DNA of 64,000 nt from Thermosipho affectus (GTDB lineage: Bacteria > Thermotogota > Thermotogae > Thermotogales > Fervidobacteriaceae). Within the stretch, counting starts at the first letter, position 1, and every line of letters starts with the position of its first letter. The notes beneath the pieces were generated by a model. The model saw nothing but the letters and a program-made list of their open reading frames with translations, was not told the origin of the DNA and ran no database searches. Positions 8,228-9,805 of the stretch are shown one piece after another. Both the position numbers and the translations under genes were made by a program. The stretch lies in contig NZ_LBFC01000022.1 of assembly GCF_001990485.1 (NCBI RefSeq), positions 186,001 through 250,000 of the forward strand, written 5' to 3'.

Positions 8228-8892
8228 AAAATATAGTAGAAACCTTAAAACAAGAATTGGGATTTATTAAAATTTATAAAGTAGAGAATAATATTAAAGT
8301 GCTGGTAAAATCGGAGAAATCTAGTTTACAAACAAATACTTTTGATGAAACATTGAAAATAAAAATAAATAACAAGGAATTTAATATAACACCAAATGTT
8401 GTATCATTTTTTGATTTAAATGAGATTACAATGGTAAAAAACATTCTTATTGAAGCTAGTGAGGTAAACATTAAAAGCTTATTTCCAAAAGCAATTGAAA
8501 TTAAAGAAAATCCAGTTTTTTTAAATTTAGGTGACAAAAAGGTTAAGGACCAAAGACTTAAAATCATAATAAGAGTAAAAAAAGTAGAAAGAATAGTTCC
8601 GAAGGTACACTCAAAAATTTTACCTTCCTTATTAAGATTGGCAATTTATCCATCAAAAGTTGTGGAAAAAGATAAGATCTTAAATATACTAAAAAAATAT
8701 ATTCAAACTTATAAAACAAGTGAAATAAGGTTTATAGGCTTTTTTAAAAATGTTCCTTTGGGGAAAGCAGAAAAAATTTTTATTTCAGATGAAAAAATTA
8801 GTGTGCTTATAAACAGTAAAAGAAAAGATTTTTTTGCAGATATTGTAATTTTTAAAATAAATGATATGTATAAAATGGAGGTAATCAAATGA
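8215..8892 (+). CDS. Unknown protein in the flagellar operon
   Basis: A 225-aa, lysine- and isoleucine-rich protein without membrane segments. The first 90 residues have a pattern of short strands that could be a GAF- or PAS-like sensor fold, but no diagnostic motif supports that. ATG at 8215 lies inside the previous gene. Its stop overlaps the ATG of the next reading frame (ATGA at 8889). Confidence 0.65.
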   Translation: MRIIKNIVETLKQELGFIKIYKVENNIKVLVKSEKSSLQTNTFDETLKIKINNKEFNITPNVVSFFDLNEITMVKNILIEASEVNIKSLFPKAIEIKENPVFLNLGDKKVKDQRLKIIIRVKKVERIVPKVHSKILPSLLRLAIYPSKVVEKDKILNILKKYIQTYKTSEIRFIGFFKNVPLGKAEKIFISDEKISVLINSKRKDFFADIVIFKINDMYKMEVIK

Positions 8893-9044
8893 TATACGAT
8901 CCAGAAATATATACAAGACTAATCGAACTTAAAGGAAAGAGAAAAGTAATATTTGGAATTTTAAAATCTATTGAAAAAATTAATGAAAGTAAATATAAAA
9001 TACTAATTAGAAATCTTGAAAATGAAGGTTTAAAAAAAAATTAA
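8889..9044 (+). CDS. N-terminal part of a frameshifted NYN-type nuclease gene
   Basis: A 51-codon frame starting MIYDPEIYTRLIELKGKR and ending just after an A9 run. Its ATG overlaps the previous stop (ATGA) and follows ATGGAGGT, so it is a well-formed translation start. The downstream frame at 9062 has no ribosome binding site of its own, and reading across the A9 run with a -1 shift gives one continuous protein of 305 aa. I therefore take this as the first exon-like part of one gene, broken by recoding, mutation or a base-calling error. Confidence 0.65.
   Translation: MIYDPEIYTRLIELKGKRKVIFGILKSIEKINESKYKILIRNLENEGLKKN
9029..9040 (+). other. Slippery run at the frameshift point
   Basis: The sequence T-TTA-AAA-AAA-AA holds two overlapping heptamers of the X-XXY-YYZ type (T TTA AAA and A AAA AAA) in the upstream reading frame. 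A stop in the downstream frame at 9023-9025 and the stop of the upstream frame at 9042-9044 confine any shift to this window. A-tracts of this length also promote RNA polymerase slippage. Confidence 0.55.
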
Positions 9045-9061
9045 AAAATACAGATCTTGAT

Positions 9062-9805
9062 TTGTTTTCACAATATACATATCAACTTATCCATGGAAAA
9101 GGAAGTCTTTTCAAGAGAATTAAACTTTTTGAAGAATTAGGAATTAAAAGTAATGAAATTGCAGAAATTCTGTTTTGGGCAAATCCTTATAAGTTCCCAT
9201 TTCCAATGTTAAATGAGGAATACACAAAAGATTTTATCGAAAAAAGGGGGAAAATATTATCTAAGTTAAAACTTAAAGATTTTTTAGAATTATATGCACA
9301 TGAAACAGTTAAAGAACAAACCTTTTTAAAAGATATAGTATTTGAAATAAATGAAATAACGTTTTTTGATTTAAAAAAAGTTAATTGGGTAAAAGATTTA
9401 GTACGTGAACTTGATCCAATATCCAAAGAAAAAATTAAAGAACTTTCAAAAATACATCCTTATTTACTAAGGGCTATTTTTGTTAAACCAGAGTGTCCTG
9501 TAATACTAGACGGGAATAACATTGCACATTGGACTTTTCCGGCAAATATAAATAACATTATTGATGTTTTTGATAAGCTTTCAACAACCAAAAAATTTTA
9601 TTTTCCGTTTTACATAGTCTTCGATAGAAATGCCAAATATATGTTTAAAAATAATGAAATTTTAAAATTTCAAAATGTGTATTTTTATTCTCCAGCGGAT
9701 GAAATGATTCTGACGCTTGCAAAAAAATTAAAAGCCAAGATTATTTCAAAAGACAAATTTAGAGATTGGGATAAGAATATAAAAAAACATATTTTAAAAA
9801 TCTAA
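9062..9805 (+). CDS. NYN/PIN-like ribonuclease domain protein, main part
   Basis: The C-terminal 100 residues look like a NYN (Zc3h12a-like) nuclease: VILDGNNIAHW with the first acidic residue D150, the strand IVFDRN with a second Asp, then YFYSPADEMILTLAKKL and an IISKDKFRDW segment, which is the usual order of acidic residues in PIN-fold metal nucleases. The upstream 145 residues are helical and unassigned. TTG at 9062 is the earliest start codon in this frame but lacks a Shine-Dalgarno sequence; the frame is open back to 9026. A full-length product from 8889 would be 305 aa. The gene converges with the TolB-like gene and overlaps it by 12 nt. Confidence 0.7.
   Translation: MFSQYTYQLIHGKGSLFKRIKLFEELGIKSNEIAEILFWANPYKFPFPMLNEEYTKDFIEKRGKILSKLKLKDFLELYAHETVKEQTFLKDIVFEINEITFFDLKKVNWVKDLVRELDPISKEKIKELSKIHPYLLRAIFVKPECPVILDGNNIAHWTFPANINNIIDVFDKLSTTKKFYFPFYIVFDRNAKYMFKNNEILKFQNVYFYSPADEMILTLAKKLKAKIISKDKFRDWDKNIKKHILKI

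Follow-up and report, generated by a model that had tools for sequence, protein, structure and literature searches.

A probable young frame break at an A9 tract in a conserved NYN-type gene of Thermosipho affectus, with plausible rescue by poly(A) slippage

A gene that is conserved across the Thermotogales, and is predicted to code for a protein of roughly 305 amino acids with a C-terminal NYN-like RNase domain, is split in Thermosipho affectus into two reading frames at a run of nine A residues. The explanation that we favor, and to which we give an even chance as a whole, is that a conserved gene has here suffered a genuine frameshift, recent and confined to one lineage, whose effect is partly made good by poly(A) slippage. 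Its parts differ in firmness: the break is probably real; we infer that the A9 stands in the DNA and is not a consensus error; rescue of expression by slippage is plausible. The locus lies in a 64,000-nt window (positions 186,001 to 250,000 of contig NZ_LBFC01000022.1, the whole stretch of DNA that was analyzed); the genome assembly has 27 contigs and totals 1,771,018 bases.

The favored explanation would unfold as follows. A single base lost recently in the line leading to T. affectus would have generated the A9 tract and with it the stop codon. RNA polymerase would add an A to part of the mRNA at A9 or, by an alternative route, ribosomes would slip by -1 there; slippage would rejoin the frames just where the orthologues have them joined. 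Since poly(A) runs of such length slip, T. affectus most likely continues to make the full-length protein, in smaller amounts. The frame breaks at a homopolymer of at least nine A or T residues, and inserting one base brings the conserved protein back into register, gap-free with the congeners. The type of event is already known; it is not a new mechanism. If the break is real and rescued, this free-living thermophile would provide a clean natural case in which poly(A) slippage lets a gene outlast a frameshift, and the conserved pgk/tim shift site of the genome would serve as internal control; if it is an error, the annotation of an order-wide conserved gene that reads as broken stands to be corrected.

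Two frames and one predicted nuclease

Table 1. Features of the split gene, in window coordinates
Feature	Position	Strand	Remarks
Shine-Dalgarno sequence GGAGG	8877..8881	+	7 nt 5' of ATG 8889; from sequence
Upstream frame, 51 aa	8889..9044	+	ATG 8889; last codon AAT 9039-9041; TAA 9042-9044
Downstream frame, 259 aa	9026..9805	+	rest of the protein; one step back from the upstream frame
Three overlapping in-frame heptamers	9029..9041	+	fit X-XXY-YYZ; from sequence
A9 tract	9032..9040	+	one further A would open the frame; in congeners the run is broken by a G
C-terminal NYN-like (Zc3h12a-type) predicted RNase domain	9497..9805	+	left boundary approximate; PF11977 and PDB profile matches

The upstream frame (Table 1) is the helical N-terminal part of the NYN-type protein, cut off by a TAA that starts two bases after the end of the A9 tract. 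At the position equivalent to its Shine-Dalgarno sequence, the genome of a congener, G003, carries TTGGAGGTAATTAAATG. No start codon in the downstream frame is preceded by a ribosome binding site: close to the 5' end of the frame the sole common one is TTG 9062, which is without a Shine-Dalgarno sequence, and the next is ATG 9206. The frames overlap in the 16 nt before the stop (9026-9041), and the heptamers are T TTA AAA (9029-9035), A AAA AAA (9032-9038) and A AAA AAT (9035-9041). One added A or a -1 shift yields a protein of 305 aa, precisely as long as its G003 orthologue, with the peptide NEGLKKKLKNTD across the join. An initial, sequence-only reading of this DNA had described the same layout, namely a 51-codon frame with a proper start running into A9 and ending at 9044, a second frame open from 9026 without a ribosome binding site, a 16-nt overlap, and a 305-aa product of an extra A or a -1 shift; all of this holds, and only its count of two X-XXY-YYZ heptamers falls short of the three in frame.

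The protein is made up of a helical N-terminal part and, by profile comparison, a predicted C-terminal NYN-like RNase domain. The window protein scores 22.1 bits against PF11977, for which the Pfam cut-off is 23. The same family gives a weak match in all five members of a first alignment, and is found at E<=0.01 in 17 of 18 homologues (best 7.6e-07); a profile of these 18 matches the PDB structures of ZC3H12A and KHNYN at about 1e-5. The acidic residues D162, D200, D225 and D243 (P0001 numbering) are conserved, and D208, D246, D271 and D289 (G003 numbering) are invariant in the 18 homologues. The likeness to the Zc3h12a/KHNYN-type NYN RNases thus consists in profile matches that are weak but recur, covering the second half of the domain, and in the conserved Asp residues; the differences are a window protein that falls under the Pfam cut-off and a long helical N-terminal part. 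In a low-confidence AlphaFold model of an intact orthologue (mean pLDDT 65, and about 50 in the C-terminal domain), the N-terminal part, the first 200 residues, is predicted to be all-helical and the C-terminal part alpha/beta. A match to a toxin OB-fold Pfam family (E 0.0024, in one of the 18 homologues and below cut-off) was set aside as chance.

Orthologues and the ancestral state

The downstream frame is matched in 40 of 41 Thermotogales genomes, its own included (39 others), and none of these orthologues has an internal stop inside the match (among the most distant ones, a few are partial). Each of the three congeners has a single open frame of 305-306 aa. Identity to the intact G003 orthologue is 62% for the upstream piece (against its residues 1-50) and 68% for the downstream piece. 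Both pieces align to the congeners without a gap at the join (NLENEGLKK before it and KLKNTDLDLF after it, against NLENKELKKKLKKTKIDLF). An alignment scan for relatives matched only Thermosipho and Thermotogae metagenome bins, all of them unbroken; other T. affectus genomes, for which PMC6211235 (Table 1) gives the accessions CP007223, CP007121, LBEX00000000 and LBEY00000000, were not found in the collections searched. Strains 1063 and 1070 of the species have been sequenced with PacBio plus MiSeq. Since the congeners align over the join without a gap, the fusion is, on this comparison, the ancestral state and the split the derived one. The proposal that both frames belong to one 305-aa NYN-type protein is therefore borne out by all close orthologues, in which the join is in register. 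The test that had been attached to it, that homologues with one open frame would signify a simple error, does not settle the matter: the homologues do have one frame, which makes the break a derived one without making it an error.

At the junction, G003 reads TTA AAA AAG AAA CTA, and G002 and G001 read CTA AAA GAA AAA TTA; A9 at the join is absent from these congeners, whose run a G interrupts. Removal of a single G from the G003 junction (TTAAAAAAGAAACTA) or from the G002 junction (CTAAAAGAAAAATTA) gives A9 directly. One event suffices, so the break may stem from a single deletion, without an A10 intermediate. Since the congeners are without A9 and read in one frame, programmed frameshifting conserved across the genus is excluded.

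Weighing error, decay, programmed shift and restart

The complete G003 genome (1,915,238 bases) was compared with 931 kb of T. affectus (about 53% of the genome) by tblastn in both directions. Among the 1,130 G003 reading frames matched, only the NYN gene is broken inside the gene at a homopolymer, and the 18 other mid-gene sense tracts of A9 or longer in this sample are all in frame, so that an assembly littered with homopolymer errors is unlikely. (Other frameshift candidates from the same comparison were rejected by position or sequence: reading extended 5' of true starts, a tRNA-like stretch, and a family matching several similar copies.) The T. affectus ik275mar genome (LBFC00000000) is an Illumina MiSeq assembly (PMC6211235, Table 1), of a chemistry that gives few homopolymer indels. 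These facts speak against the possibility that the A9 is a consensus error and that the true sequence is A10 with one open frame. Such an A10 would also be unusual, given the depletion of A10+ described below, and would be the sole mid-gene A10+ in the sampled coding sequence, in which two others turned up, no more than 8 and 33 nt away from gene ends. An error is nevertheless what one might suspect when all close relatives are unbroken and the break sits in a homopolymer; the sequence would be the same if a true A10 had been read as A9, and three contigs of the assembly (C6, C7 and C9) have ends that coincide with A runs of at least nine or lie no more than about 30 nt from them, perhaps homopolymer assembly breaks. 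We consider it unlikely, with enough in its favor to be taken seriously: the base-calling error that the sequence-only reading had named as the dull alternative is, for a MiSeq assembly, less probable than was thought there, and keeps a minor share of the probability.

In the T. affectus gene, no second lesion was found. With G002 as outgroup, T. affectus and G003 have 2 and 7 unique substitutions, respectively, in the upstream part and 22 and 23 in the downstream part; with either G001 or G002 as outgroup, T. affectus has no excess. (Ka/Ks was dropped as a means of dating the break, Ks being near saturation.) Lacking both a second lesion and an excess of substitutions, the gene is, on this evidence, not long free of constraint: either the break is recent, or it is rescued, or it is an error. 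True decay, meaning a real frameshift with negligible rescue and hence a young pseudogene, draws on the lineage-specificity of the break and on the fact that genes do decay in these lineages, as the broken flagellar fliF genes of G003, G002 and G007 attest; furthermore, the lack of acceleration is equally to be expected of a very young unrescued break. A gene that is kept in 40 of 41 genomes, has no second lesion and no rate acceleration, and is broken at a slippage-prone length of A makes decay improbable all the same.

The fliF breaks differ from one another. In G003 (T. melanesiensis-like; C1:501937-503539) the gene is split about 25 codons in by an A9 with one A too many, in G002 (C2:291328-292929) by an in-frame TAA, and in G007 (C1:325357-326959) by a mid-gene frameshift near residue 160; fliF is intact in T. 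affectus and G001, and no break was detected in G006, G010 or G012. Breaks in several genomes suggest repeated loss of flagella in the family.

It is quite doubtful that T. affectus has evolved a programmed frameshift, by RNA polymerase slippage or ribosomal -1 shifting, that sets the dose of the nuclease. The three in-frame heptamers adjoining the stop codon, the A9 tract itself and, in the same genome, the conserved pgk/tim frameshift site with its A10 invite the thought, but the shift site is absent from all congeners, which need no shift, and the heptamers are commonplace: T TTA AAA, A AAA AAA and A AAA AAT have 567, 715 and 515 in-frame copies, respectively, genome-wide (in about 277,000 codons), and were for that reason rejected as evidence by themselves. 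Furthermore, the 51-aa product would end after the first N-terminal helices, with nothing of the nuclease. At the shift site, predicted folding is no better than in shuffled controls (z about 0.2-0.8), and there is no strong internal Shine-Dalgarno sequence, only a weak GAAGG adjoining the tract. Slippage at A9, which had been proposed as something that could set nuclease dose, is plausible as rescue and unsupported as an evolved control, there being no tract in congeners, no stable stimulatory structure and no strong internal Shine-Dalgarno sequence. That the A9 is fixed across T. affectus strains, with slippage setting the amount of full-length predicted NYN nuclease, is a long shot; it would mean that, in a genus with poly(A) frameshifting already in use at pgk/tim, an unbroken gene had lately come under dose control at the level of the species. 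Least probable is two-protein expression, in which translation stops at 9044 and restarts at TTG 9062, 17 nt past the stop, to make a 247-aa protein that keeps the whole NYN (catalytic) domain, because this TTG is without a Shine-Dalgarno sequence and is an internal residue in congeners, and the conserved N-terminal helices would be lost.

Poly(A) slippage elsewhere and in this genome

The favored explanation, a young break partly rescued by slippage, has its closest counterparts in the frame-broken genes of the endosymbionts Buchnera and Blochmannia, in which, by the account in PMC5009743 (its reference 244), RNA polymerase slippage at poly(A) corrects 12-50% of transcripts. As far as that account extends, the likeness consists in an AT-rich genome and a one-base break at poly(A) in a gene that is otherwise intact and conserved; the differences are that corrected transcripts have been seen in RNA in those endosymbionts, and that T. 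affectus is free-living, with only one such break in 931 kb. In Citrobacter rodentium tssM, transcriptional slippage at A11 (about 20%) likewise acts on a poly(A) tract shortly before a stop, an added A giving the full-length protein, but the tract is A11 instead of A9, both products are needed, and the mechanism has been shown by mass spectrometry (PMC4256274). Thermus thermophilus dnaX offers slippage at a sense-strand A9 in the gene of a thermophile; its site has a known functional role, and its unshifted frame is full length, so that slippage shortens the product, whereas in the NYN gene slippage would lengthen it (PMC1088944). Rescue at A9 could be small, since poly(A) reporters were rescued poorly by E. 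coli RNA polymerase in one study (PMC6260861).

A second poly(A) frame junction is found outside the window, at G000:C22:46840-46849, where an A10 lies at the end of pgk with tim overlapping. The TIM frame begins inside the A10 and lacks a start codon; to be joined, it requires one extra A or a -1 shift, the same direction as in the NYN gene. The A10 is identical in G003 (C1:1272454-1272463). The missing start codon implies, on sequence grounds, that a PGK-TIM fusion is made by -1 shift or slippage in Thermosipho. TIM is a separate 253-aa frame in all four Thermosipho genomes, and lies inside single frames of 654-708 aa in five further genomes of the order, G010, G012, G014, G031 and G039. The PGK-TIM fusion protein of Thermotoga maritima is reportedly made by frameshift, a finding credited to Schurig et al. 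in 1995. The PGK-TIM junction of Thermosipho resembles the NYN gene in its poly(A) tract and shift direction, within the same order and genome; the difference is that its frame split is common to all four Thermosipho genomes, whereas the NYN break is confined to one lineage.

Within the window, A9 occurs 5 times against 48 expected from dinucleotide shuffles. In coding sequence (821 coding segments of the 931-kb T. affectus sample, measured against synonymous-codon shuffles), A6, A7 and A8 are not depleted (1.10x, 1.19x and 0.95x), and depletion sets in sharply at exactly nine (A9, 0.24x; A10+, 0.04x). Nine is the length at which selection shows in a large share of bacterial genomes, and sharp depletion of this kind has served to infer the slippage-prone length in bacteria (PMC1088944); as a sign of slippage-prone length it is indirect, since replication slippage yields the same pattern. 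T runs are also depleted from nine (T9, 0.18x; T10+, 0x). One gene of T. affectus (G000:C18:131204-131362) has three in-frame A9 tracts inside 160 bases, which is unusual given the depletion.
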